Positions 2 to 15,691 of a stretch of DNA of 20,616 nt are shown one piece after another; the first letter of the stretch is position 1; every line of letters starts with the position of its first letter. This stretch comes from a virus: the IMG/VR virus record IMGVR_UViG_3300046777_001459, positions 1 through 20,616 of that record. One strand, 5' to 3'. Made by a program: the position numbers and the translations under genes. The notes beneath the pieces are model-generated. The model ran no database searches. It saw only the letters and a list, made by a program, of their open reading frames with translations, and had not been told where the DNA came from.

Positions 2-748
2 CTTAACGATCTCCTCCTAGGCTTGGCGCCGTCAAGCGTTCTCGGCTCAAGCCGAGCAATCGCGTCGCTGGTTGCCAACTACGAGCAGCGCATTGCGCCA
101 AAGCGCAAGCTTCTGTACTCGTGGGTCAAGAAGGTATGGGAGATGTCTGCCCGTCTGTGGGAGGCCAAGGATAAGGCCGTCGCAGAGGTCATCGGCGCAG
201 AGTACCGCATTGAGATTACCCCACCAGAGCTCACGCCGCGAGATACGCTTGAGCTTGCTCAGACGGCTCTCAACCTTGTTCAGGGTCGAGTGTGGAGCGC
301 AGAGCGTGCAATGGACCGTGTCGGCGTGGAGGACCCAGAGGGCGAGAAGGAACTCATCCGCGACGAGCAAACCGACGCAACGCTCAACCCAGCAGCAGTG
401 CTCACTATGGGCCAGCTCATGATGATGTTCATGCAGCTCCAGCAGATGCAGGCGCAGATGCAGGCTCAGATGGGCCAAATGGGTGTACAGACTCCACCAG
501 GAGCAGAGGCTCAGTTCCAAGAGCAGCAGGCTTCAGCAATGAACGCCTTCCGCCAAGCTGGGGCAGCCACTGGTACGGAGATGATGAATGGCGGCGAGAT
601 GGGGCAGTTGCCGCCTGAAATGCTCCCAGCAAACGCACAGCAGCCAGGTCAGCCGGGAGGAATCTCCCCTGAGCAGCAGCTTGCACAAGAGATGATGTCA
701 GGCGGTCAGCTGCCGGAAGACGTCGCCGCAGCCCTCGGAGGTGAATAA
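2..748 (+). CDS. Portal protein, C-terminal part (5' end outside window)
   Basis: The reading frame is open to the left edge, so the gene begins upstream. The internal TTG at 23 is not a credible start. The visible part, about 248 residues, is charged and helical, with a segment rich in Trp, Lys and Glu, then a stretch rich in Met, Gln and Ala, then a Pro/Gly/Gln-rich tail. This looks like the C-terminal crown and tail of a phage portal, the dodecameric ring through which DNA enters and leaves the capsid. Position supports this, since the scaffold and major capsid genes follow two genes later. A 12-bp repeat encoding Gln-Met-Gln-Ala lies inside it. The stop codon overlaps the next ATG (TAATG). 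No diagnostic portal core is in the window, so the call rests on C-terminal character and gene order. Confidence 0.6.
   Translation, partial: LNDLLLGLAPSSVLGSSRAIASLVANYEQRIAPKRKLLYSWVKKVWEMSARLWEAKDKAVAEVIGAEYRIEITPPELTPRDTLELAQTALNLVQGRVWSAERAMDRVGVEDPEGEKELIRDEQTDATLNPAAVLTMGQLMMMFMQLQQMQAQMQAQMGQMGVQTPPGAEAQFQEQQASAMNAFRQAGAATGTEMMNGGEMGQLPPEMLPANAQQPGQPGGISPEQQLAQEMMSGGQLPEDVAAALGGE
443..478 (+). repeat. 12-bp tandem repeat, three units, in portal C-terminus
   Basis: Two near-identical 12-base units (CAGATGCAGGCG and CAGATGCAGGCT) are followed by a degenerate third (CAGATGGGCCAA). They encode a Gln-Met-Gln-Ala run inside a Met/Gln-rich helix. This may be slippage-prone low-complexity sequence in the disordered portal tail. 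Confidence 0.7.
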
Positions 749-3558
749 TGGCTCGTAAAGGTAAATTCGGACGATCTGCGGCTGGGTCACAGAACCTATC
801 CGCACTGGTCTACTCGCTGCTAAAGGAAGAGCGAGCCGCCCAGGAAGATACAATGATCACTGCGTACCGGACAAACATGACGTCTGGTACCGCAGCTGGC
901 ACGTTCACCTCAGGCGGGGCGACGACTGCCGCAACTGCCACGGCCGTACGCCAGTGGTACCTTGATCAGGCTGCCGCAGCACAGGCCTCTGGCGACACAG
1001 TAGGTGCCGCACGATTCCGCAGCCGAGCCGAGGAGTTCCGAGTCCAGTCGCTTTCCGACATGGAGCGGGTACTGGACCGGGCATACGAGGACGGCAACGC
1101 CGTGGACTTGGCCCTGTTTGGTCTGAGCGGCACGGACAAGATCACCGCATCTATTTACGAAGAGATCATGAACGGTATTGCTGGCGATCCGTCAATGACT
1201 ACGTCGGACAAGCAGCGTCTTCAAGGCAAGATTTACTCGGTGTCGTATGACTATGCCAATGAGCAGATGGTCAATGGGTTCAACGAAGGACGGTACACCG
1301 CAGCCCAGCTCGTCAGTTTCTACGACAAGGAACTCAAGGCTGCTTTGGCGGCCGGACTTACTGAGACTAGCAAGACGTACCGGGCTATCCAGTCCGCACG
1401 AGCTAACGCAGTTGCTCGCAACAAGACCGACACCGAGAATGGCCGAATTGAAACTGTCAATAACGCTATGAACGACGAAGCTGACGCTATGGCTAAGGCT
1501 CTCCAGTCGCTTCTAAAACCAGTCATTGCCAACTTCGCAACAGACAAAAATACTCAAGAGATCTTAAAGACGGCGATTGCCAAAGGTGGCGGTCGTCAAT
1601 GGTTGGCGACGTTTAGCGAAATTGCCGACAAGGAAAGGTGGGATGTTTCACAAATCTACCGGAGCGGCGCTATGGCACTCGGTTTAAGCAAGGCGCAAAT
1701 GGACGATATCCTTCGCGCCATTTCTGACACCACAAGACAGCTGCAGCAGCTTCAAGCTCAAGGGTACGGCAAGGAGATTGGGCAGTGGCCTGGGTTTATC
1801 GCTGCAACTAGTGAGGCAGCTACCGATGGTCTCTTCTCGGCATCATCATCTTCCTCAGTTCTGCGATTTAGCACGCAATATAGCGAGGTTGGCGGTAATA
1901 TCTCTTTCCGCGGATCAGGTGAGCCTGCGGCTACGTCAGAACTTTTGGACAACTTGGCTCTGCAGATTGGCGGAGCACAGTCAACAACTGTGACGGAGTC
2001 TGGCAAGAAGGACCTTATTACCCGCTTTGCTAAGGGCGACATCTCTGGATTGTTCGACAATCCAACGATCACTGATCTTGACACGTTCATCGCCGCTGCG
2101 CAGAAAGTCGGAAACATGGTTGGAGCGACAGAAGTAGATATTGCTGCTGACTTCGCTACGTTCCTTCATGTTCTTAAGTCTAACCCAGAGGATGCATTCT
2201 CGCTACCAATCGGCCAGACATTTAAGCTACTCGGCGGGAAGCCAGAAATGCTTCAGGAGGCAATCACTCAAGTTGGCGGATTTGGTACGTTCGTTACGGC
2301 TGACGTCCTCCGCCTTGCTATGGAGTCAAAGATCCTCCCAGAACTTGTCAAGAAAGTTCCTGGGTACGTAATGGTATACGACTTTGACCCGAGCCAGACA
2401 GTCGCAGGTAGAAACACGTTCTCTCATCGTGTTGAGTTGGCAGCTAATATTAACCAAAATAACTACACTATTGTTCAAGACTCAAAAGGTAATCTTTATT
2501 ACACAAAGATTATCCGCGGCAGTGCCGGAGACACGGATATCGGGTACGTAGCTGTTCCTGGCGGCGGAAATACTACTGGAGACACAAATGATCTTGTGAT
2601 CGTTAAGAGTAGATTTAGCGAAAACGGGTATGGACGAGAAGAAGTCATAGCCTTTAAGCTTACAACTGCCCAACTTATGGAGTACGGTATCTGGCTAAGG
2701 AACACTAAAGGACAAGGTGGCGATTTTGCCACTCCATTCATTAGCGTTGACCAAGGGAAGGCAACCTTAAATCTTGGCCAAGGACTGAGAGACGCCCTCC
2801 TAAACGGGGAAATGGTTGGTCAGTGGGCCAGGACTAAGGGAGACGCATTCTTAAATTCAATTAAGACCACCACAGTAAATGGTGGAATTGTTCTAGCCGA
2901 GGAATCGCTCCGAAGATACGCACGAGAAGTCTTTGACGCTGGCTTGGACTCAAAAAACGCACGTTCTAGTATCCAGAAGTGGCTCCAAGAGAACAAGGGC
3001 ATTTCTGATACCGTGTTTACCATTACAGACGCAATCCTTGGAAGCGGCCTAACTGCCAACGGCGACCAAGGATGGATGCTGGTTATTAAAGACGCTAATG
3101 GGAACTCGCAGTTTTACACTAACTCTGTTGACGACACCAAAGACAAACTTCCGCCTGCGCCAGCTGGTTCTGGGGCCGGTGCGTTTGCGTCTACTGACCC
3201 ATCGTTTGGTATCCCAGCTGGGTCTCCAAGGCCAGCAGGGCCAGCGCCGATGGCTCCAACTCGCCCAGGATCACCGGGCGCGGCTGGAATCCCAATGGCG
3301 TCAAACGTTATTCCAACAAGCGATTTGCTGGAGCACACGTTGCGCAACATTGGCCCGAGCATTCGACCTGGAGCAGCAAATATCACCCCAGAGCTAGCTC
3401 CGGGAGTGCGACCGGGTTCGCCTCAGCCTACGATTGACTTCGGAGGAGAGCGTGGATCTGGGCCGCAAGTCAGGCCACTGTCAATCTCGGCAGAGCCATC
3501 CACAGGAGTGCCAACGCCAATTAAGCGTGACATCCGATTCGGAAGGAGAAACGTCTAG
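748..3558 (+). CDS. 936-aa protein of unknown function, probable virion protein
   Basis: I do not recognise a family. The ATG overlaps the portal stop and follows GGAGG at 737-741 with 6-base spacing. Residues 1-380 look mainly alpha-helical, rich in Ala, Gln and charged residues. A middle part (about 560-640) is beta-like and rich in Asn, Gly and Thr. Residues about 790-936 are rich in Pro, Gly and Ala and probably disordered. Two similar beta-hairpin motifs, DSKGNLYYT and DANGNSQFYT, fall in the middle and late parts. There is no signal peptide, membrane segment or catalytic motif that I can name. Its place between portal and scaffold, next to a 1661-aa protein, suggests an internal or ejected virion protein. 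The gene ends TAGTG, overlapping the next start. Bases around 2440-2640 look more A+T-rich than the neighbours. Confidence 0.75.
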   Translation: MARKGKFGRSAAGSQNLSALVYSLLKEERAAQEDTMITAYRTNMTSGTAAGTFTSGGATTAATATAVRQWYLDQAAAAQASGDTVGAARFRSRAEEFRVQSLSDMERVLDRAYEDGNAVDLALFGLSGTDKITASIYEEIMNGIAGDPSMTTSDKQRLQGKIYSVSYDYANEQMVNGFNEGRYTAAQLVSFYDKELKAALAAGLTETSKTYRAIQSARANAVARNKTDTENGRIETVNNAMNDEADAMAKALQSLLKPVIANFATDKNTQEILKTAIAKGGGRQWLATFSEIADKERWDVSQIYRSGAMALGLSKAQMDDILRAISDTTRQLQQLQAQGYGKEIGQWPGFIAATSEAATDGLFSASSSSSVLRFSTQYSEVGGNISFRGSGEPAATSELLDNLALQIGGAQSTTVTESGKKDLITRFAKGDISGLFDNPTITDLDTFIAAAQKVGNMVGATEVDIAADFATFLHVLKSNPEDAFSLPIGQTFKLLGGKPEMLQEAITQVGGFGTFVTADVLRLAMESKILPELVKKVPGYVMVYDFDPSQTVAGRNTFSHRVELAANINQNNYTIVQDSKGNLYYTKIIRGSAGDTDIGYVAVPGGGNTTGDTNDLVIVKSRFSENGYGREEVIAFKLTTAQLMEYGIWLRNTKGQGGDFATPFISVDQGKATLNLGQGLRDALLNGEMVGQWARTKGDAFLNSIKTTTVNGGIVLAEESLRRYAREVFDAGLDSKNARSSIQKWLQENKGISDTVFTITDAILGSGLTANGDQGWMLVIKDANGNSQFYTNSVDDTKDKLPPAPAGSGAGAFASTDPSFGIPAGSPRPAGPAPMAPTRPGSPGAAGIPMASNVIPTSDLLEHTLRNIGPSIRPGAANITPELAPGVRPGSPQPTIDFGGERGSGPQVRPLSISAEPSTGVPTPIKRDIRFGRRNV

Positions 3559-6500
3559 TGCCAGCATACGATCCGGGCAGAGACTCAGGGAATACTGGGC
3601 AACAGGACAAGCCAGGCATTGGCTCTAGGGATCTGGCCCTCAAGGTCACCCCTGAGTACGGCATTGACACTGGCCGGTGGGCCGATGTTCCGGCCGCGCT
3701 CAACGAGGGTGGAGACTCTGCAAATCCAGTAGACTTTGTGGCATCGTTGCCGTTCCGCGGAGTCGGGGTGCTCGGTGAAGGCATTGGGGCTGGTCTTGGC
3801 GGGGCAGCAAACCTTATTGGGCAGTCCCCAATTGGACAGATTGGCAGCATCCCGCTTGGTGGCGACACGCAGCTTGGCGATGTCCTTGGTAATCTGGGCA
3901 AGTACATGCTTGGCCTTATTGCCGCACCTGGTGAATTTGTGCAAGACGAATTCGCTAAGTTCCGCATCAACCACATGACTGGTACGCTGGATGATGACAT
4001 GATGGCGATGAAGAATGCTGGGTCCAGTCTTGACGACATGGCCAAGTACATGCGAGAGTCAGGCCGCTCATTCAGCAACGACAGGACGTTGAACCTTGGT
4101 TTGGCAATGCTTCTTGATCCGCTAAACCTGACGCCATTTGCATTTGGTAAGGTTAACCTGTTGAAGAACCTTGCTCGCTTTAGCCCTGCCGCAGCTGGCT
4201 TAGCCCTCGGATCTGTAGCTGGCCCGATTGGCGCAGTCGCAGGAGCAGCGACCGGCTTGTCTGTGGGGTCAAGGCTAGTAGTGCCTGCGGCTCGTGCCGC
4301 TGGGCTTGGCGGTAAAGCCCGTGGACTAGACTACGCAAGCAAGATCAAGACGGTACAAGCTGCTGAAGCAGCAGGGGTGGCAATCCCAGAAAATCTGCGT
4401 GGCATGCCTCAGCTGCTCAGCGAAATTGAAAAGGCCACATTTGGGCGCCTGCGGAATATTAGCCAACCGCTGAAGACGGCGCTTACCATTACTACCGGGC
4501 AAGCGATTAATCGCACACTTTCAAGCGGCGGAACGCTTATTGACGATAACGTAGCTCTTGCTCGTGACATCGGCGGAGAGGGCGCCGATGGGGTCATGCT
4601 CCGCAGGCTAGGACTTGCCAATCAGCAAAGCATTATTAGCGGCGTGATGCGGTCTAAGGTCACTGAGGTTGAGTCTATGGCTCAGAATATCGTGGAGAAC
4701 CTTGACGCAGACCTGAGCGTGGCATTCTCTAGGTACCGAGACATTCGGGATGGGGCAATCGTACGAGACCCTCTTTACGAGAGCCTAACTAAAGTTGTTG
4801 GCGAGGGCGAGAACGCACGGCCCCTTTTCCCGTCTGCAGAAGACTTTGTCATGGGTGTGCTTAAGGAAAGGCACGGCAAAGATCTTGCTGGGGCATTTAA
4901 CCTGTCCGAGGGTGAGATCATTGGGTACATCCAAGATACCAAGGGTCTTGTTGACGGGTTTGACAATACCACTGGATACAGGATTATTGACGACGCAACA
5001 CCCAAGCAGATCGTACAGAGCCGGCTACGTCAACGCATTGTGAATTCAAAAGTTAACCGCGATATGGAAGGGTTTGACCCGATTGCTGTTGCTCAGAAAG
5101 AGGCGGCGCACAGCATGGATACCCTGACGCGGCGGGTCACGGAAGATCTTGATTGGCAAGTCACTCAAGAATCACAAGCAATTGGCTTGAGCCGTGGGAA
5201 TGCAGAAAGCCTTGCATTTGAATATGCAGTACGATACGCTAATGAGCTGGTGAACAGCCTTTCAGACGACGTTGCCAGAACGTCTGGAAGAACGGTAGCC
5301 ACTGACGCACAGCTTGAAAAAGTGGTGAAGAGTTTGTACGGAGAAGATGCGCGCATAGTCGGCACTCGCGTCAAGGGTGGAACATACTTCCCAGAGACAA
5401 CAGCAGGCGAAGCAGTTAATATTCCGGCGAACATTACACGAGAACTGGCCCGCAAGTTTGCGTTTATCCGTCAAGTAAACTATGGGTATAACCTTAACCG
5501 AATGGGCAACGTTCGGCGAGTTCTGCACTCTATCGCCGCATGGAAGACTGCTGACGCGAACATGAAGACGAGCCTTGCCAAGGAAATTTCAAAGAGCCTT
5601 GGCCGACCGTTGACACCAGAGCAGATTGGCGAGATTGCGAACCAGCTCCCAGAAAATCTTAGTGTCGTTCGACCAACTCTGGTAAGGTCAGATGGCCTGA
5701 TTGAGGAAAACCTTAAGGGATGGCTGGCCTTGTTTGAAGACATGCAGAACAGGACTGTTAACCCAGCTAAATACAAGGGTGTTCCGGACAAGTTAATTGC
5801 ACGCATCGTAGAGAAGATTGCTGATGGCAGGACAACTAACGAAGAGCTTGGAAGGCTTTGGGCCGCCCACGCCACTGCAAGGTTCCCAGATATTGCTGAG
5901 AATTTCCCAGGGGCCGCAGTCTCATCAAAAATGGCAAGGCCAGATGCAGTAAGGGCATTCATGATGCGTGCCATCCAGGACGGTACTGTTGTTGCCAGAA
6001 TGAACACGAAAGAGTTCATTCAGATGCGCAAGCTCTGGCTTGCAGCTGGCGGAACAGCTGACGAGCTAGATAGCATTGTTGAGGCTGCCGCAAGAGACGG
6101 ATACACCGTCGGAGTGGCACCAGCAGATAACCTAATCCACACGCCACAGAAGATTGGAACACTTGCTAAAAATGGGCAGGCTGTACCAGAGTTTGTGGTT
6201 AAGACAAGGCCGTACACAGACATTACGTCAGATTTTGTTGACGGCTTGCCAAGCTTGGTAAATAGGGGAGACTATGTTGTTGGTGGGGTAAAGGGGGCCC
6301 TCCAGCACATGCTTGCTCCAGTGTATCAATCAAGCTCCAACGCAGCCTCCTTCCAAAGGCTGACAGTTTTGCTTCGTCCATACTTTTCCCTTGAGGAGAT
6401 TGAGAAGTTCCATCAGGCAGTAACCAAGCGAGCGGTAGACAGCCGTATTGGTCAACGAGGGCTTGATGCGAGGACGTATGACGACCTCATGAACGAAGTT

Positions 6501-8543
6501 ATCCGAGATATTGACCCTCTTAGTACCCTTAAAGACAGAATGGAAACCCTTGCCAAGACCGGCGTGGCGCCAGTAAACCTGCAAGATGTGATTCTTCGCG
6601 CATACAAGGGCGAGCTCTCTCAGGTAGGCGCAACACAATGGATTACCGGATCAGCAAAGACTGCGCCGATGGTAGGCGCCTTTATGGCTAAGGTTGCTGA
6701 AAATTGGTATCCTACTATGAAGTATAGGGTAAACCCACTGTTCATGGTCCAAGAAAGCATTGAGTCTCCGTTCTGGGCAGAAGCCAGAGGAATCCATACG
6801 GGGACTTTGGCGGACAGGCTTGAGGCATCAAATGTCTCTGCGCGAGAGCTTCGGCAAGCGTTCGGAGACCGAACTGCGGCCGCCGCTACAAGCCTCCATG
6901 AACAGGCATTCTTCACGGCAACAATGCGGTCTCGCCACGGAGCAGAGTCTGCCATTGAGGCTGGTGTGGTCGGGGAGCGTTCTGTTCTTTCTAGCAGCAA
7001 ATCCGCTACGATGGACTGGTTTGATAGGAAATGGGATACAATCGCAAAAAATAAGGAAGACGCCCAAGAGCTTATGGCAGTGGCAGATATGGCCCCTAAG
7101 TTTCAAGAGTGGGTCAGGACAAATATGCCTGGGGAGTATATGGCTCTCTACAACAAGTTTGGCTCAGACCCGCTTGATCAACTGCTTGGGTGGTACAGTG
7201 AGTACAAGAGACTTCACCAATTCAAGTTTGGCGAGAGGGCCATGGATGCCGCAAAGGCTCCAGGGTTTGGGTTTGCGATCAATCCAAGCGCAGTAGAGCT
7301 TACGTACCTTACAGATGACGTAGCCTTCTTGCAGCAGCAACTAAGCCCAGAGGCATTTGCGGAGATTATCCGGGGAGGAATGCGTCCGCAAGTTGTTGGC
7401 GCAATGATTAACGCCAAGTACGTTAACCGGGCAGCCGATGCCGGATACGACGTAGCAGTCGTGCGGAGCTCACTCACGGAACTTCGCAGCACAGCAGAGC
7501 GGTATGCTCGAGCGCTTAACAGCAACTCTCCTGACATTGCAAAATTTGGCAAAGCATACCAGGCCTCACTTGACGCTTTCGTTGCGGAGTTCAAGGGGCT
7601 AAAGGCCCAGATTGACGTTGCTGATGTGCAAAAGGCTATTGTTGAAGAGCTTATGGATGACTTCATTCCTGGGTTCTCAAAGGGAGATAATGCTGCTGCG
7701 GTCATTGAAGCTCTAGGAAACTCTAAGAAATACGGAGCTACATTCGGTGAACTTACTGACATCATTGAGCGTATTCGCCTAGACGCAGGAGATATTAGGA
7801 AGTTGGTACCAGGAGCGCGAGATCGCATCAAGGAGATTGTGCAATCGTACCGATCAGGCGAAAGCGCTCGTGCGGCAACTACCCGCGGAATCCAGGAGAT
7901 TCTAACCGACAGCACAAACAAGATGCTACAGAAGCACGGGCCGGAAGAGATGCTATTCCAGGCAGCGAAGTGGTCATATCAGAAGGGCTATGAGGCAATG
8001 TTGCGGGTAAACTACTTTAACCCAAACCGCAGCCTCTTTGAGCGTGGTATCAACCACCAGTTCCTTGGGCTATACCCATACTCTTACATGATGGGCAAGG
8101 TGCTACCAGAGCTCACTAGGTTCATGTTCTGGCGACCATTTGGTGCCATTGCGCCAGGAGCTGGCTACGCAGCATACAACAAGCTTTCAGAGTACCTCTC
8201 ATACAACGGACTGCCAGAGGGCTGGGAGAGTGCTGCTGAGCGGCCAGACTACCAATTCTTGATGGTCCAGCTTGTTCCGGGTATCCCAGAAGACATGACT
8301 GTGGTAACCCCAGGATGGCTGCGGCGGTCTATTTCAACGATTTCACGTCAAGGGTATGATCAGTTCAACGCCACTGATCTTTTGGCAGAACCTGCGAAGG
8401 CGTTCACTACAAGCGGTGCGCTTGGATTTGGTCAGCTGGCACTCAGCGGTCTGTCCGAGCTAACTGGACAATTGACAGACGCTGTTACAGGCGTAAAGCA
8501 GGCCAACCCACTGGAGTACACTCCAGGAGAATTTAGGAAGTAA
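3558..8543 (+). CDS. 1661-aa giant protein, probable internal or ejected virion protein
   Basis: This is the largest gene in the window. It starts at GTG, overlapping the previous TAG, with AAGGAG at 3543-3548, nine bases upstream. A Gly-rich N-terminal part (about 60-125) is followed by a DPLNLTP motif near residue 187 and an Ala/Gly-rich hydrophobic stretch at about 208-245 that could insert in membrane. The long middle is helical and charged. The C-terminal 170 residues are aromatic-rich (FLGLYPYSYMMGK, FMFWRPFG) and hydrophobic in patches. No lysozyme, protease or polymerase motif was seen. Size, membrane-active patches and the place next to portal and scaffold suggest a DNA-ejection protein like the internal proteins of podoviruses. 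A tape-measure role is an alternative, but tape measures normally lie downstream of the capsid and tail tube genes. Confidence 0.75.
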   Translation: MPAYDPGRDSGNTGQQDKPGIGSRDLALKVTPEYGIDTGRWADVPAALNEGGDSANPVDFVASLPFRGVGVLGEGIGAGLGGAANLIGQSPIGQIGSIPLGGDTQLGDVLGNLGKYMLGLIAAPGEFVQDEFAKFRINHMTGTLDDDMMAMKNAGSSLDDMAKYMRESGRSFSNDRTLNLGLAMLLDPLNLTPFAFGKVNLLKNLARFSPAAAGLALGSVAGPIGAVAGAATGLSVGSRLVVPAARAAGLGGKARGLDYASKIKTVQAAEAAGVAIPENLRGMPQLLSEIEKATFGRLRNISQPLKTALTITTGQAINRTLSSGGTLIDDNVALARDIGGEGADGVMLRRLGLANQQSIISGVMRSKVTEVESMAQNIVENLDADLSVAFSRYRDIRDGAIVRDPLYESLTKVVGEGENARPLFPSAEDFVMGVLKERHGKDLAGAFNLSEGEIIGYIQDTKGLVDGFDNTTGYRIIDDATPKQIVQSRLRQRIVNSKVNRDMEGFDPIAVAQKEAAHSMDTLTRRVTEDLDWQVTQESQAIGLSRGNAESLAFEYAVRYANELVNSLSDDVARTSGRTVATDAQLEKVVKSLYGEDARIVGTRVKGGTYFPETTAGEAVNIPANITRELARKFAFIRQVNYGYNLNRMGNVRRVLHSIAAWKTADANMKTSLAKEISKSLGRPLTPEQIGEIANQLPENLSVVRPTLVRSDGLIEENLKGWLALFEDMQNRTVNPAKYKGVPDKLIARIVEKIADGRTTNEELGRLWAAHATARFPDIAENFPGAAVSSKMARPDAVRAFMMRAIQDGTVVARMNTKEFIQMRKLWLAAGGTADELDSIVEAAARDGYTVGVAPADNLIHTPQKIGTLAKNGQAVPEFVVKTRPYTDITSDFVDGLPSLVNRGDYVVGGVKGALQHMLAPVYQSSSNAASFQRLTVLLRPYFSLEEIEKFHQAVTKRAVDSRIGQRGLDARTYDDLMNEVIRDIDPLSTLKDRMETLAKTGVAPVNLQDVILRAYKGELSQVGATQWITGSAKTAPMVGAFMAKVAENWYPTMKYRVNPLFMVQESIESPFWAEARGIHTGTLADRLEASNVSARELRQAFGDRTAAAATSLHEQAFFTATMRSRHGAESAIEAGVVGERSVLSSSKSATMDWFDRKWDTIAKNKEDAQELMAVADMAPKFQEWVRTNMPGEYMALYNKFGSDPLDQLLGWYSEYKRLHQFKFGERAMDAAKAPGFGFAINPSAVELTYLTDDVAFLQQQLSPEAFAEIIRGGMRPQVVGAMINAKYVNRAADAGYDVAVVRSSLTELRSTAERYARALNSNSPDIAKFGKAYQASLDAFVAEFKGLKAQIDVADVQKAIVEELMDDFIPGFSKGDNAAAVIEALGNSKKYGATFGELTDIIERIRLDAGDIRKLVPGARDRIKEIVQSYRSGESARAATTRGIQEILTDSTNKMLQKHGPEEMLFQAAKWSYQKGYEAMLRVNYFNPNRSLFERGINHQFLGLYPYSYMMGKVLPELTRFMFWRPFGAIAPGAGYAAYNKLSEYLSYNGLPEGWESAAERPDYQFLMVQLVPGIPEDMTVVTPGWLRRSISTISRQGYDQFNATDLLAEPAKAFTTSGALGFGQLALSGLSELTGQLTDAVTGVKQANPLEYTPGEFRK
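8472..8500 (+). promoter_or_regulatory. Weak candidate promoter ahead of scaffold and capsid genes
   Basis: A perfect -35 hexamer, TTGACA (8472-8477), lies near the end of the 1661-aa gene, about 113 bases before the scaffold ATG. At 16-base spacing the best -10 is TAAAGC, matching only three of six consensus positions. It would fit the need for extra capsid and scaffold expression, but it lies in coding sequence and may be chance. Confidence 0.2.
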
Positions 8544-9148: not shown

Positions 9149-10480
9149 ATGGCTACAAGCAATACGCTTTCTGGCCCACCACTGCACCTGACGAACTCGC
9201 TGAATGGCTCTGAGGCTAATGCCTACCAGAAGCTCGTTCAGGAGCTCGTTTCGCAGTCGGTCCAGAAGGAACTTCGCAACAACATGGTCCACGCTCTTCC
9301 GAGCAACTATGTCCCTGGCACGTTTGTCAAGGGCACGGACCGCATCCGCTACGTCCGCTATCCGGACGTTAGCCACTCGCTAACTGAGCTAGCCGAAGGT
9401 GTGACGCCTGATCCGACGATTAATCTCGCGGTTCGGACTGAGTACTTCTCGGTCAAGCAGTACGGCGCGTACACCAGCCTGAGCGACATCGTTCAGCTGG
9501 ATTCGCCGCACGACCTTGTGTCGATTGCGTCGGAGCGCGTATCGTTCGCTGCCGCTCAGTCCATGGACCGCATCGTCCGCGATGTGATGAACGCTGGCTC
9601 GGCTCGCGTGCACTACGCACAGGCCCAGTCCACGTCGTCCACGATCACGACCCGAGCCGGCCTTGCCGCGGCAGCCATCAGCAACATTGCTGAGGGTACT
9701 GCTCGCCAGGACTACAAGCTCAGCGGTCTTGAAGTCAAGAAGGCTGTTGCTCGCCTCAAGGCAGCAAACATTCCTGCGTTCCCAGACGGGTTCTACCGCT
9801 GCATCATTCACCCGAATCAGCAGTTTGACCTCCTGACGGATACCTCAGGACACGGCTTCCTTGAAGCTTCGAAGTACGTTCAGAACCTCACCATGCTTAA
9901 TGGTGAGATCGGTGCCTACTCCGGCGTTCGCTTCCTTGTCTCCAACGAGGCAAAGACGTGGACGGTGGATGGCGCAACGATTTACTCGGCACTCTTCTTC
10001 GGTCCTGACGCATTCGTCGTCGGCGACTCGCAGACGATGCAGACGTACTTCATCGCCCCAGGTGGCGACCACACTGACCCACTCTCGCAGCGCGCACTGC
10101 TTGGCTACAAGGTTCGCTTTGGTGCCATGATCATCGGCGAAGCTGCTGTGAGCGAGTACAGCGGTCGCGACAAGGCAGCTATTGTGACGAACAAGGCCCT
10201 CACCACGTCAACCGCGACCATCACGACCAGCGCAGCCCACGGGCTGTTCGCAGGCGAGAGGGTCAAGTTCGTTGGTGTTGACAGCCAGCTCAATGGCAGC
10301 ACCTGGACGATTGCTACGGTACCAACCGACACGACGTTCACCATTACCCCTGGTGGGACTCCGTTTACGGCAGTTGCATCAGTCGCGGTAAGCGACGGCG
10401 TTGTGAGCAACGTTGTGCCTCAGACCAGCACGGGTATCACCCGATACCTGCGCCTTGAGACACGCGCAACCGCTCTCTAA
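9149..10480 (+). CDS. Major capsid protein, N4-gp56 family, with extra C-terminal beta domain
   Basis: This is the main shell subunit, with an HK97-type fold expected for this family. Start ATG follows AAAGGAG at 9136-9142. The 443-residue protein has the N4-gp56 pattern: an N-terminal arm, a segment with RYVRYPD (69-74), a long helix around 120-150, a region with FPDGFYRCIIHPNQ (211-224), and a core ending near GYKVRFGAMIIGEAAVSEY (319-337). Residues about 345-425 are an additional Thr/Val/Gly-rich beta segment with AAHGLFAGERVKFVG (362-376) and LNGSTWTI (381-388). The family C-terminal strand then resumes at RYLRLETRA. The insert may protrude from the capsid as a decoration or stabilising domain. 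Codons are strongly biased to C or G endings in the main domain, fitting high expression. Confidence 0.9.
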   Translation: MATSNTLSGPPLHLTNSLNGSEANAYQKLVQELVSQSVQKELRNNMVHALPSNYVPGTFVKGTDRIRYVRYPDVSHSLTELAEGVTPDPTINLAVRTEYFSVKQYGAYTSLSDIVQLDSPHDLVSIASERVSFAAAQSMDRIVRDVMNAGSARVHYAQAQSTSSTITTRAGLAAAAISNIAEGTARQDYKLSGLEVKKAVARLKAANIPAFPDGFYRCIIHPNQQFDLLTDTSGHGFLEASKYVQNLTMLNGEIGAYSGVRFLVSNEAKTWTVDGATIYSALFFGPDAFVVGDSQTMQTYFIAPGGDHTDPLSQRALLGYKVRFGAMIIGEAAVSEYSGRDKAAIVTNKALTTSTATITTSAAHGLFAGERVKFVGVDSQLNGSTWTIATVPTDTTFTITPGGTPFTAVASVAVSDGVVSNVVPQTSTGITRYLRLETRATAL

Positions 10481-10543: not shown

Positions 10544-11209
10544 ATGGCAGCTATTGACACACTACTACAGAAGATCCGACGAGATCTTAGGGATACCGGA
10601 ACGTCTGACGGCGTTGACCGTACCTGGAGCAACGCTGAGCTGGAAGACCTTGTGAACTTGGCCCTGCCTGACATTTCTCGGGCCTACCCTCGTGAGCTTG
10701 TGTCTACGGTTGCCGTACCTGAGATCCTTACCTCATTCCAGGCAATCAGCATCTCACTACCAGCCGGCATGGACTCCATCATCCGCATTGATGCCCTCAA
10801 GTACCGCATTGATACCAACACCAGCCCAATCAAGGAGTGGTACGACGTTAACGACACACTAGAGCCGGGCAACGGATGGGGTCCGTACAGCGGCTGGGAA
10901 CTTCATGGCTCCACGGTCTACCTACAGCCCGGTCGCATTGCTCCAAGCACATCCCACCTACGTGTGGTAGGATATGGGGATTGGACTGTGGACACACTTG
11001 ACGTCAACGCTGAGCAGGCTGTACGATTCTTCGTTCAGGCTGAGGCATTCTTCAAGCTCATGGCTGACCGCACGATGTTCCAGCAGTGGCAGGTAAACTC
11101 TGGCGCTACGGACGTTTCGGTCCCCATGATCACGCAGAACTACACAATTGCACGCAACCGCTTTGATCGGTTGATGGCAAGAATCCGTAAGATCCGGAGG
11201 GTTGGCTGA
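10544..11209 (+). CDS. Probable head-tail adaptor (connector) protein
   Basis: The 221-residue protein starts at ATG with AAGGAG at 10533-10538. It begins with a helical stretch (residues 1-50, LLQKIRRDLRDTG and ELEDLVNLALPDISRAYPRE) followed by a beta-rich middle (about 55-145) and a helical C-terminus. This is the pattern of adaptor proteins that dock under the portal and shape the neck of tailed phages. Its position directly after the major capsid gene and before tail-tip genes fits. No enzyme motif is present. The stop overlaps the next ATG (TGATG). The family call is by pattern and place, and I cannot separate it from other neck proteins. Confidence 0.6.
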   Translation: MAAIDTLLQKIRRDLRDTGTSDGVDRTWSNAELEDLVNLALPDISRAYPRELVSTVAVPEILTSFQAISISLPAGMDSIIRIDALKYRIDTNTSPIKEWYDVNDTLEPGNGWGPYSGWELHGSTVYLQPGRIAPSTSHLRVVGYGDWTVDTLDVNAEQAVRFFVQAEAFFKLMADRTMFQQWQVNSGATDVSVPMITQNYTIARNRFDRLMARIRKIRRVG

Positions 11210-12057
11210 TGGATTTCAATAGGCCTATTAGGATTCAGACCGGAACGAACACGTTCCTGGACCTTAACTCCCTAGCTGGCGTCCGCGTTGGTGCGGCGCC
11301 AGTTTCAGGGTTTAAGGTTGAGTCGGCAAGCTACGCGTCAGTTGCCGCACAAGGGTTCATTGACAAAGCCGCCCTGCGAGACGGGTCGACTGTGACTGAG
11401 GCGTACCTTGGAACTAGGACTATTGATATGTTGGTCTCCGTATACGGTGAAACGATGGGAGACTTCTGGGACAAGCTAGACGAGCTCACAGCTGCCATGC
11501 AGCCGATGCCGCTAGACTTCTCAGCCGACTTCGGTGTACGCGCCCTGCGATTCTACCAGCCAAGCTGGGAGCTGGCAGCAGACTTCCCAGGCGGGGTAGA
11601 GCTTGACATGCGCTGCCGGCCTGCTGCGCTGCCGCAGTACAACGTAGGCCGCCGCAACTCTATCGGCAAGGACTCTGACGGGTTCTCGCAGCCAGCTACG
11701 ATTCGCTTTATTGCTCCGAACCCAAGGAAGTACCTGACTGCATCCAAGTCCCTTAGCACTGGCACGGCCACTCACAGGGGCTCAGCGACTGTCTATCCAG
11801 TTCTTTCCAAGACTTCGTGTACGGCTGGGGATACCGTGACCTTTGCATGGTCTGGTGGCGGCACGTACAGCACGGTGCAGGCTACAGTCATTGACACAGG
11901 GTCAATCAGCATTGACACGGACACGATGCAGCAGACCAACTGCCGGATCGTCCACGCCAACACGTCAGGAGATTTCCTGGTGTACCCTGGAACCGTGACG
12001 ATTGGCGATACCAACACAGCTAACGCAACACTGACATTTACGGAGGCTTGGCTTTGA
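11209..12057 (+). CDS. Distal-tail (Dit)-like baseplate protein
   Basis: This 282-residue beta-rich protein starts at ATG overlapping the upstream TGA. Residues 50-100 have the layout of a siphovirus distal tail protein N-terminal domain: a strand pair followed by RTIDMLVSVYG (70-80) and a helix, ETMGDFWDKLDELTAAMQP. Residues 100-175 finish that domain. Residues 185-282 form a Thr/Ser/Val-rich C-terminal beta domain. Dit proteins form a hexameric ring linking the tail end to the hub. The next gene is a hub-like protein, matching the usual Dit-Tal order. Normal upstream partners (tail tube, tape measure) are missing here, so the ring might attach directly to a short neck or connector. Confidence 0.6.
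   Translation: MDFNRPIRIQTGTNTFLDLNSLAGVRVGAAPVSGFKVESASYASVAAQGFIDKAALRDGSTVTEAYLGTRTIDMLVSVYGETMGDFWDKLDELTAAMQPMPLDFSADFGVRALRFYQPSWELAADFPGGVELDMRCRPAALPQYNVGRRNSIGKDSDGFSQPATIRFIAPNPRKYLTASKSLSTGTATHRGSATVYPVLSKTSCTAGDTVTFAWSGGGTYSTVQATVIDTGSISIDTDTMQQTNCRIVHANTSGDFLVYPGTVTIGDTNTANATLTFTEAWL
12042..12046 (+). promoter_or_regulatory. Ribosome binding site that selects TTG 12054
   Basis: GGAGG lies seven bases before TTG at 12054 but only one base before TTG at 12048. The downstream TTG is therefore the better start of the hub gene. Confidence 0.6.
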
Positions 12058-14915
12058 ACAGTAGCGTCAGGATTCGGATCTTTGATATCAACCCTGCCGA
12101 CCGCGGTGTCGGCAATGAGATTTGTGTCATCTACGACGCAAAGAACATCGGATCTGAGGTCTACGCTAACGACGTAGGGAGCGCCTTCTGGACGCTGCCG
12201 ATTGACCACCCTCTCGTTCCGGACTTGATTCCACTGCGTAGGCACTACAAGATTGAGCGCAAGAGTGGCAATAACTGGGTGCTCATTGGGGCTGGGCTTC
12301 TGTCTGCCTACGACGCCACCAACGACGAGATCGTGTACGAGGGCATGGACTACATGACCATGATGAGCATGCACTACACTAAGTTGGTTGGTCCTGAGTC
12401 GGGATCTGAGACCGCTATCCAGCGTCCAGAGGCGGAGTCAACCAGCGAAACCATTGACACGACGATCTACGCTACCAGGTCTGCCTCAGTGCTTACGGAC
12501 GGGTCTGCCGATCCAAAGCTGTGGAACGCCAACGATGCCGAGAAGCACATTCCTCTCGGTGTTATTTTTAGCACGGCTAGCATCATTGCGTGGAGCCTGA
12601 CCGCTACTACTGCTCGGGTAACGTACAGCGGTGTGTCTACATCGTTTTTTGCAGTAAACGATTACGTTTATATCTATGGTAATTCACAGGCAAGAATCAA
12701 CGGCACACGCCAAATCACAGCCGTCGGGACTATTTCCGCAACATCTGGGTACTTTGACTTTAACACTACCTCTGGATCAAGTGGCGGTGGCGGGGCAAGC
12801 GGCACCGTAGCATTCGCCCGGTACGTCTCTAGGGGCTTCGTTAAGTTTGATCTTCCTGCGAATCTTGATCTAAACTCAACTGTGACCAAGGCAGATCTTA
12901 TCTTGTATCAAACAAACGAGAGTGGGGACCACACCATTCCGGACACAACCCCAGGAGACTTGCGGATTAGGCGTGTAAACACTAACGATTGGACGACAGA
13001 GCAAAGCGTTGGCGCAGAAAACTCATGGGGCAACGCTGGAAATACTCTTGACTGGTCTACCATGAGCGGGGACACCGTATCCGCTTCTGAAGTGTCGTAC
13101 AACTCGCATACCAATGTGCACCTTACTAAGATCACAGCTAGCATTACGTCTATTGTTGACGACTGGAAAGACACTCCAGCGCTGAACAAAGGTCTTCAGC
13201 TTAGGAACACTGACGAGTCTATTGTCTCAAACGGGTTCACGCTGGCCAGCACTAAGTACAGCGCATCGTACCGTCCGGCCTTGGCGCTTACCTATACAGC
13301 AGTGACGAACCCAGCGACCAACGTTAACCCCAACGGCCTCTCCCATGGCCCAAAGGCCACCAAGGCGCTAGTCAAGCAGAGAAGCTCTAACAGCTCGTCT
13401 CGGCACGATGGTAAAGAAATCGCAATATATTGCAAGAACGCAGCTGGCGACCCCAACGAGCTCGACCTAGTCTACGACGAGACTGACCAGTCATACTTGC
13501 TCTCCGGAACAATCTACATTGAGCGGTCAGCAATCAACGATGCAGAGAAGCTGTATGACGCGGAGGCCGACAACTACGTCCCTAACCGGTTCAACATTGA
13601 GTCAATCCGATTGGCAGTAGTGGCAAACCCTGGCGAAGAGGTCTGCACCATCAACGTGTGGCCTGGTTCATGGACGCAGGTTGGCACACCAGAAACCCCT
13701 GCGCAGTTCAAGTGGCAGCTAAAGCTACGCCAGCATGACTCTGATGTGGCCGAAGATCTTGCCCCTGCTGCCAGTACGCCAACACTCTCAACAGTCGGCG
13801 GAGTGTACGGGAACTTTACTGGCACTACTGAGAACGTTACGAACTCGTACGAGATCAACTGCCTTACGAGTGGCGTGCAGTACAACTTCAGCGTGCTACC
13901 GCTGGTAGAGCTGGCCGTGGTGTCGCCGCAAACCTCCTCTACCACCCCAGACTATGGCGGCACTGGGGCGATCCACGACCTCAACGGCATTTTGGCCTCC
14001 ACTAATCCTGATGATAGTGCCATCATGGGACTAAAGAGCGAGACGCTTGAAGACATCTTTACCGAGTACGTGTCGCAGCTTGACAATGCTGGTGGGGTGT
14101 ACTCCCGGTTTGGGTGGATTCTTAAAGAGACGGCGTCTGGGCAAGCTTACAGCACGGAACTGCTGCGGTACTTTACTTCGGGTCAGTCAGTCCTGGAGTT
14201 CTTGCGCGATATGTGCGAGAAAGAGATGGCTGCAAACCTACTGACGCCAGATGACGCAAACCGCAGGTGGGACGTCATTGACGACGTCAAGGTACCGTGG
14301 CGTGCAGTGTTCAACTTCGTTGGCGTTCGTGGAGCTTCATACCCTGGCACTCGACTGTGCATTGCTCCTTCCAAGAGCGACTCTTCTCCGCGGTACCTAT
14401 TTGATTACCCAGGGAACATTGACGTGTTTAGGTACAGGAGAGACGGGAAGAAGCTGCGCAACTCAGTGCGGATCGTGCCATCCACGGCGTTCCTTACCGG
14501 GAGCACAACGACCTCATCTGGGTCCCGATCTCAGGGAAAGCTGGCGGAGAACGCGGCGTCAATCCAAGAGTACGGGTACGCCCCAATCCTCACAACGCAG
14601 GCTAACTTTGCTGACGAAACTGAGCTCCAGAAGTACGCCGACTCACAGCTCATTAAGCTTTCGGACATTCTCAACGTCTCAGTGGCAAACATTCAGATCG
14701 GCCCAGACACGGTGCGTCCGTTTGAGGACTTCTTCCTTGGCGACATCGTGCAGGTTGCCATCAGGCGCAAGAACGTCAACTTCTCTGACCCCATCAACCC
14801 TGACCTTATGACCGATGCCTACGTCGTAGGTGGCATCAGGTTTGAGCTTCCGGTAGACGGGTCAGAACGGATTAGTTTAGACCTTGTAAAGGCCAGCGAT
14901 TTCGGCAGAGGATAG
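12054..14915 (+). CDS. Tail hub-like protein (Gp37-like) with nested DNRLRE domain
   Basis: This 953-residue protein starts best at TTG 12054, overlapping the previous stop. Residues 1-110 and about 655-953 resemble the tail hub or minor tail proteins typified by siphovirus ReqiPepy6 Gp37. The N-terminal part has a barrel-like segment (HYKIERKSGNNWVLIGAG), and the C-terminal part carries RYRRDGKKLRNSVRI and FFLGDIVQVAI. In between, residues about 133-415 form a DNRLRE-type beta domain ending in SYRPALALTYT, probably binding surface polysaccharide. That domain is broken at about 173-255 by a separate beta segment with a GGGG linker. Another beta region (about 440-620) follows. The protein likely forms the tail tip and contacts the host. 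Bases in the nested insert are richer in A+T at third codon positions than its neighbours. Confidence 0.7.
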   Translation: MNSSVRIRIFDINPADRGVGNEICVIYDAKNIGSEVYANDVGSAFWTLPIDHPLVPDLIPLRRHYKIERKSGNNWVLIGAGLLSAYDATNDEIVYEGMDYMTMMSMHYTKLVGPESGSETAIQRPEAESTSETIDTTIYATRSASVLTDGSADPKLWNANDAEKHIPLGVIFSTASIIAWSLTATTARVTYSGVSTSFFAVNDYVYIYGNSQARINGTRQITAVGTISATSGYFDFNTTSGSSGGGGASGTVAFARYVSRGFVKFDLPANLDLNSTVTKADLILYQTNESGDHTIPDTTPGDLRIRRVNTNDWTTEQSVGAENSWGNAGNTLDWSTMSGDTVSASEVSYNSHTNVHLTKITASITSIVDDWKDTPALNKGLQLRNTDESIVSNGFTLASTKYSASYRPALALTYTAVTNPATNVNPNGLSHGPKATKALVKQRSSNSSSRHDGKEIAIYCKNAAGDPNELDLVYDETDQSYLLSGTIYIERSAINDAEKLYDAEADNYVPNRFNIESIRLAVVANPGEEVCTINVWPGSWTQVGTPETPAQFKWQLKLRQHDSDVAEDLAPAASTPTLSTVGGVYGNFTGTTENVTNSYEINCLTSGVQYNFSVLPLVELAVVSPQTSSTTPDYGGTGAIHDLNGILASTNPDDSAIMGLKSETLEDIFTEYVSQLDNAGGVYSRFGWILKETASGQAYSTELLRYFTSGQSVLEFLRDMCEKEMAANLLTPDDANRRWDVIDDVKVPWRAVFNFVGVRGASYPGTRLCIAPSKSDSSPRYLFDYPGNIDVFRYRRDGKKLRNSVRIVPSTAFLTGSTTTSSGSRSQGKLAENAASIQEYGYAPILTTQANFADETELQKYADSQLIKLSDILNVSVANIQIGPDTVRPFEDFFLGDIVQVAIRRKNVNFSDPINPDLMTDAYVVGGIRFELPVDGSERISLDLVKASDFGRG

Positions 14916-14974: not shown

Positions 14975-15691
14975 ATGGCGAAAGCAAACCTCGTAGAGCG
15001 AGTGGGCGAGCTCAAGGAGCAGGGGCTATCGTTCACTCAGATCGGGAACCAGCTCAACATGAGCAAGGACCAGGTCCAGAAGTTCCACAAGCGGTATGCA
15101 GAGGGGAAGCCGGAAGACCTGCTGCCAGCTGCGCGCAAGACCACGCCAACGCCGAAGTTCGTTGGCATTGACATTGCGTTCTTTGACATTGAGACGACGT
15201 TCAGCAACTGGCGACGCATGCTCTGCGGATCTATTGCAGACAGTCTAGGCAACGTGATCACGCTTAGCCACGACACCCATCCTGGCAAGAATTGGCAGGA
15301 TGACAGCGTGCTCGTGAAGGCATACTGCGAAGAACTCGACAAGTACGACGTGATCGTTGGGTGGAACTCAAAGCTCTTTGACGTTCCGGTATTGAACTCG
15401 CGCATGCTGTACCACGGCTTCCGGCCGTACGATCCGAAGATGCACCTTGACCTTATGTATAAGGCCACTGGTTCGTCTATCGCAATTGGCCGCAAGAGCT
15501 TGGACAACGTGTCTAAGTACTTCGGTGTACAGAACAAGAAGACGCCGCTTGATCCGCGCACATGGGATGACGCAGATCATGGCGACCGAGCTTCGTACGA
15601 GAAGATCATTGAGCACTGCGAGGCAGACGTCTTGGTTCTCCGCGACGTGTACGCCAAGCTCAAGCCAATGGTTCGGATTCTTCACCGATGA
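14975..15691 (+). CDS. HTH-containing DEDD-family 3'-5' exonuclease
   Basis: The 238-residue protein starts at ATG after GGAGGAG (14966-14972). Residues 1-42 form a helix-turn-helix-like unit (FTQIGNQLNMSKDQVQKFHK). Residues about 62-235 are an RNase-H-like exonuclease domain. Exo I is FFDIETT (D71, E73), Exo II is VGWNSKLFDVPVL (D136), and Exo III is HCEADV (D218), where the usual Tyr is replaced by H214. Such domains remove nucleotides from 3' ends using two metal ions and resemble proofreading domains of family B polymerases and YprB-like nucleases. It is the first gene behind the promoter and overlaps the next by ATGA. It probably serves phage DNA replication, repair or nucleotide recycling. 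Whether the substrate is DNA or RNA is unknown. Confidence 0.8.
   Translation: MAKANLVERVGELKEQGLSFTQIGNQLNMSKDQVQKFHKRYAEGKPEDLLPAARKTTPTPKFVGIDIAFFDIETTFSNWRRMLCGSIADSLGNVITLSHDTHPGKNWQDDSVLVKAYCEELDKYDVIVGWNSKLFDVPVLNSRMLYHGFRPYDPKMHLDLMYKATGSSIAIGRKSLDNVSKYFGVQNKKTPLDPRTWDDADHGDRASYEKIIEHCEADVLVLRDVYAKLKPMVRILHR

Follow-up and report, generated by a model that had tools for sequence, protein, structure and literature searches.

The window analysed here, a 20.6-kb virus record taken over its whole length of 20,616 nt, includes an open reading frame for a 955-aa protein that may be a tail hub, as suggested by gene order and weak family matches. The frame begins with a TTG codon, and M, V or L is found at the same start position in the homologues. 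Residues 783-916 gave weak Pfam matches to Prophage_tail (PF06605, 20.3 bits against a cut-off of 31.3) and to Sipho_Gp37 (PF14594, 21.1 bits against 26.2), and residues 421-640 matched no Pfam family. The hub gene lies directly 3' of a gene called Dit-like from weak matches only. A tblastn search of annotated phage genomes with the hub identified no cultured relative and no host: there was no match, with none for the DNRLRE region even at E up to 10. Hub homologues were also absent from the genome contigs searched, so that no link to a host is given, and a PDB sequence search with the hub produced no relevant match.

Elsewhere in the window, positions 23-8543 encode the C-terminus of a portal protein (phrog_64) and then two proteins without family match, of 936 and 1661 aa, and a scaffold-like gene and then the capsid gene lie 3' of these. 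Neither a tail tube gene nor a tape measure gene could be identified in the window, and PF10145 was not found in four related records, three of them of 46 kb, which leaves the tail type unsure. Just 3' of the hub gene is an exonuclease gene (14975-15691) that occurs in two types among the relatives. The exonuclease in the window is 97-99% identical to those of relatives L002 and L006 and 89% identical to that of L013, and only ~52% identical to those of L007 and L008. The L007 hub is much nearer to the window hub than the L013 hub is, with the likeness of the exonucleases reversed, and the hub/exonuclease neighbourhood is, by these comparisons, a mosaic at gene level.

Table 1. Features of the hub gene and its surroundings in the window (residue numbers refer to the hub protein).
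Feature	Position	Strand	Basis
Major capsid protein (9149-10480): FCCH/endosialidase-barrel-like module close to its C-terminus	10184..10420	+	PF12195 and PF16190, under cut-off
Dit-like tail gene	11209..12057	+	weak phrog_5360 and Sipho_tail matches; neighbour of hub kept in relatives
Tail-hub-like protein, 955 aa	12048..14915	+	open reading frame; weak Prophage_tail/Sipho_Gp37 matches; Dit-like gene adjoins upstream; homologues
Sandwich part 1, residues 132-173	12441..12566	+	AlphaFold2; structure alignment 133..417; unbroken profile in insert-less relatives; conservation
Nested domain, residues 174-257, FCCH/endosialidase-barrel-type fold	12567..12818	+	structure alignment; missing in six relatives; exchange borders
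Sandwich part 2, residues 258-420	12819..13307	+	NF033679, E 7.7e-12; structure alignment
Further beta-rich region, residues 421-640	13308..13967	+	AlphaFold2 strands, moderate confidence
C-terminal hub region, residues 641-955	13968..14912	+	Prophage_tail, E 4.8e-4, under curated cut-off

Residues 132-420 of the hub form a beta-sandwich of the DNRLRE/CBM96 type, divided by a second domain. The NCBIfam DNRLRE model NF033679 matched residues 257-415 over profile positions 27-164, scoring 45.6 bits (cut-off 34), and each of the seven family records scored above this cut-off. The first ~26 positions of the profile correspond to residues ~132-173 on the far side of the insert, and in the insert-less relatives L062 and L052 the match is unbroken over profile positions 9-163. 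With the first strands of the DNRLRE domain at residues 132-173, residues 174-257 form an interruption in it. The DNRLRE domain in the window is complete, since the first strands missed by the profile were recovered structurally. An AlphaFold2 model of the hub, built on a 14-sequence alignment, had a confidence of 51.5 for the whole protein, ~80-90 for residues 133-290 and a mixed 55-88 for the remainder of the sandwich to residue 420. The closest solved fold was 8wab, a module that binds chondroitin sulfate (Z 16.5; 172 of 176 residues aligned, model residues 133..417), and the alginate-binding founder of CBM96, 7vbo, was also matched (Z 14.2, 168 residues, 3.5 A), with the insert skipped in both alignments. 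The Pfam CBM96 model (PF24517, cut-off 26 bits) had no match in the window and gave 24.4 bits for L062.

The first part of the sandwich ends with a conserved WNxNDxExHxxxG stretch (residues 159-171), within the WNSN motif of which the L072 hub has a seven-residue insertion. Across 16 diverse hubs there is no variation at R144, S145, W159, N160, E165, H167, G171 and Y259, and almost none at D163 and R262. These residues lie on either side of the insertion point, at hub positions 144-171 and at 259-262 (together 12477-12833, insert included), and may represent a binding or a structural site.

The nested domain is Ser/Thr/Gly-rich and was predicted as a compact beta fold with pLDDT of about 83-93. 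Aligned on its own (174..257), it matched the barrels of phage endosialidases (Z 9.4-10.4), including those of phi92 (4hiz; Z 10.4, 77 residues, 1.9 A) and K1F (3ju4; Z 9.6, rmsd also 1.9). It further matched the FCCH domain of the E1 enzymes UBA6/UBA1 (Z 8-9). By sequence, the window insert alone matched no Pfam family: neither PF12195 (End_beta_barrel, cut-off 35 bits) nor PF16190 (E1_FCCH, cut-off 29.5 bits) was found in it, and the L079 insert reached 15.8 bits with the latter. Strands 167-184 and 253-266 pass continuously between sandwich and insert in the AlphaFold2 model, where the insert appears to be plugged into one beta-hairpin turn of the sandwich. Computation thus shows two predicted folds and one insertion site. 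The proposal of the first-pass annotation, a small beta domain nested in the DNRLRE domain of a tail-hub-like protein, is borne out in that the two parts match solved structures separately and that the prediction gave two folds, not one continuous fold. The interruption that it placed at 12570-12818 is almost exact, corresponding to residues 175-257; the residue numbers given then, 173-255, were shifted by two. Its reading of a GGGG run as a linker at the junction has to be abandoned, as this run (246-249) forms a loop inside the insert, ahead of the last strand, and strand 253-266 is unbroken into the sandwich. GGG is kept at the equivalent position in the clade mates of the window, not in other relatives.

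The insert is present in all relatives at 46-97% identity. The first profile scans returned insert-carrying relatives only, and hubs lacking the insert were among the more distant ones reached via the capsid protein. Among 20 distinct hubs, 14 carry an insert of 83-100 residues between the invariant G171 and a conserved YxxR motif (259-262), and the other six (L062, L052, L053, L054, L064 and L073) have a 7-12-residue loop instead; the segment is therefore not part of the DNRLRE core in all relatives. The inserts of L067, L072, L079 and L081 are related to the type in the window (hhalign 82-89%, control slices at most 1.4%), and for the most divergent ones, of L016/L017, profile comparison with the remaining inserts was not significant (hhalign at or below 4%). 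The L067 and L072 hubs also have a loop that is ~45 residues longer at the equivalent of window residues 447-470, and the L079 hub frame (L079:2228-5410) includes one in-frame stop.

As a stand-in for the window hub without its insert, the corresponding region of the naturally insert-less L062 was folded. It was predicted to be a complete sandwich (pLDDT 86, pTM 0.84) with a three-residue turn at the insert site, and matched the same solved modules as the window sandwich (Z 16.2 and 13.3). No FCCH or endosialidase match was obtained with the L062 model, as expected, and this is not evidence by itself. On a hub tree built with the insert left out, presence or absence changed at least two times, which is forced by well-supported branches, and the grouping of all insert-less hubs together was rejected (p-AU 0.02).

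Wobble positions in the insert had been noted as A+T-rich and taken to suggest later acquisition. The GC3 value is 0.47 in the insert, 0.70 upstream and 0.57 in the rest of the DNRLRE domain, and the lowest-GC3 83-codon stretch of the hub frame starts at residue 168. With the hub divided into five segments, the insert has the lowest GC3 in each of the ten hubs of the window's clade, and ~10% of the 83-codon stretches across all genes of the window have values as low. The bias is hence real, though weak and gradual: the second part of the sandwich is also low in GC3, and such a gradient is weak evidence for foreign origin. Later acquisition does not follow, as there were at least two changes and, the hub tree having no outgroup, gain cannot be distinguished from loss.

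Comparison of pairs of relatives indicated that inserts have been exchanged. The DNA identity between L008 and L019 is 90% up to residue 174, drops within about ten codons to 41-50% in most of the insert, and is 71-86% after residue 257. With this drop in the insert and the recovery beyond it, the insert behaves as an exchanged cassette. The L006 and L007 proteins are 46% identical in the insert, 81-83% in the sandwich and 92-98% in the rest of the hub. The grouping of L008 with L019 in the hub tree was rejected by the insert data (p 0.007), and the grouping of L013 with L019, moderately supported in the insert tree, was rejected by the hub data (p 0.004). Since the insert provides only 87 usable columns and the tests were selected after the identities had been seen, these tests support exchange but do not prove it. 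In the window/L007 pair, the insert is more similar (87% identity) than the sandwich (71-77%), which would not be given by a uniformly faster clock. The modular character suspected in the first-pass annotation is supported.

DNRLRE relatives of CBM96 bind alginate, and CBM96/DNRLRE domains hold polysaccharide in a groove, which in TM6-N4 has the key residues Lys10, Lys22, Lys25, Lys27, Lys31, Arg36 and Tyr159 (PMC9971899). The insert enters the DNRLRE model at about profile position 27 and is probably located in or beside the stretch with most of these key residues, as judged by approximate position. In phage K1F, the endosialidase barrel provides one of the three sites for polysialic acid and is a hotspot for discriminating hosts (PMC12632334), and host binding is known for CBMs inserted in siphophage Dit and Tal proteins (PMC9437275, PMC7291167). 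By analogy, these precedents favour glycan recognition with a swappable second contact. The tail-hub-like protein would display a carbohydrate-binding sandwich of the CBM96/DNRLRE type at the tail tip, and one hairpin turn of this sandwich would hold a small FCCH/endosialidase-barrel-type domain. With the hairpin strands running straight on into the plugged-in domain, the sandwich fold would be kept with or without the insert. The sandwich may bind a cell-surface polysaccharide, and the insert, probably beside the groove, may provide a further contact and so adjust the choice of surface glycans. In relatives, recombination within the flanking conserved sequence would then exchange or remove the insert in step with changing host surfaces. 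This explanation, a glycan-binding sandwich with a swappable nested domain that tunes recognition, is considered fairly probable as a whole; the role of the nested domain in receptor binding or host range is inferred from its fold and from cassette exchange only.

The major capsid protein also has a module similar to the insert, close to its C-terminal end. Capsid modules reached at most 26.6 bits with PF12195, and even the L053-type module, at E 6.1e-6, is under the curated cut-off. The module is present in nearly all relatives and missing from the 50%-identical capsid protein of L071. In hhalign comparisons with the capsid module, the B-type hub inserts (L067, L072, L079 and L081) gave values of 7-24% against at most 1.8% for controls, which is suggestive only, and the A-type insert was not significant. 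These comparisons are insufficient for common descent of the hub and capsid modules, which is not claimed.

As the capsid module shows, modules of this kind do not necessarily bind receptors, and the nested domain might accordingly be an architectural decoration or spacer, involved in stability, in trimer or Dit contact or in shielding, and variable because it is exposed and little constrained. Receptor binding is unlikely for the capsid module and six relatives manage without the insert, but the abrupt changes in identity and the discordance of the trees speak for replacement and not for drift, and the inserts of the window and L007 are better conserved than their sandwiches; a spacer is considered rather unlikely. 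An insert that was never exchanged, evolving fast in each lineage under diversifying selection or relaxed constraint and lost in some, is improbable: insert and sandwich are indeed both the fastest parts of the hub, and identity declines gradually in divergent pairs like window/L008 (insert 32%, sandwich 49-52%), but neither the abrupt L008/L019 border nor the grouping of L019 with L013 by the insert, rejected by the hub tree, agrees with it. Finally, a reading of the segment as an extended loop in the DNRLRE core, disordered or of low complexity, deserves hardly any weight, as the composition of the segment, the missing family match and the unlinked L016/L017 inserts are outweighed by the confidently predicted compact fold and its superposition on solved domains.

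Carbohydrate-binding decorations of phage tail proteins are already known, and a swappable nested domain in a glycan-binding sandwich would place one decoration inside another. As in the evolved Dit or decorated Tal of Gram-positive siphophages, in which CBMs occur in loops of the Dit galectin domain or on Tal (PMC9437275, PMC7291167), modules of carbohydrate-binding type sit on conserved tail-tip proteins and vary among relatives. Here, however, the module lies inside a DNRLRE (CBM-type) domain of a hub-like protein and, unlike the BppA-like modules, is of the FCCH/endosialidase-barrel type. The sandwich belongs with NF033679 by sequence and with CBM96 (TM6-N4, 7vbo; PMC9971899) by fold, but is part of a phage tail protein and split by another domain, whereas 8wab is an enzyme appendage of a chondroitinase, has no insert and is 15% identical. 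The insert shares its fold, and its place within a larger phage tail protein, with the endosialidase barrels of K1F and phi92 (PF12195), but these are carried by a tailspike enzyme and the insert by a CBM-type domain, with no PF12195 sequence match. It likewise shares the fold of the E1 FCCH domain (PF16190), which is part of a eukaryotic enzyme, and sequence matches of the related modules here are under the Pfam cut-off.

A two-tier recognition unit can be tentatively envisaged, though with some doubt, in which a CBM96-type sandwich fixed in the hub carries at its groove rim an FCCH/endosialidase-type barrel that recombination can swap or drop without affecting its carrier, so that glycan specificity would change stepwise, with the same kind of module used in the capsid. 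The hub is an additional carrier for the endosialidase barrel/E1 FCCH fold, which already occurs inside larger unrelated proteins. The natural alleles with the module, without it and with a replaced one form a ready set for asking whether one nested domain changes adsorption.
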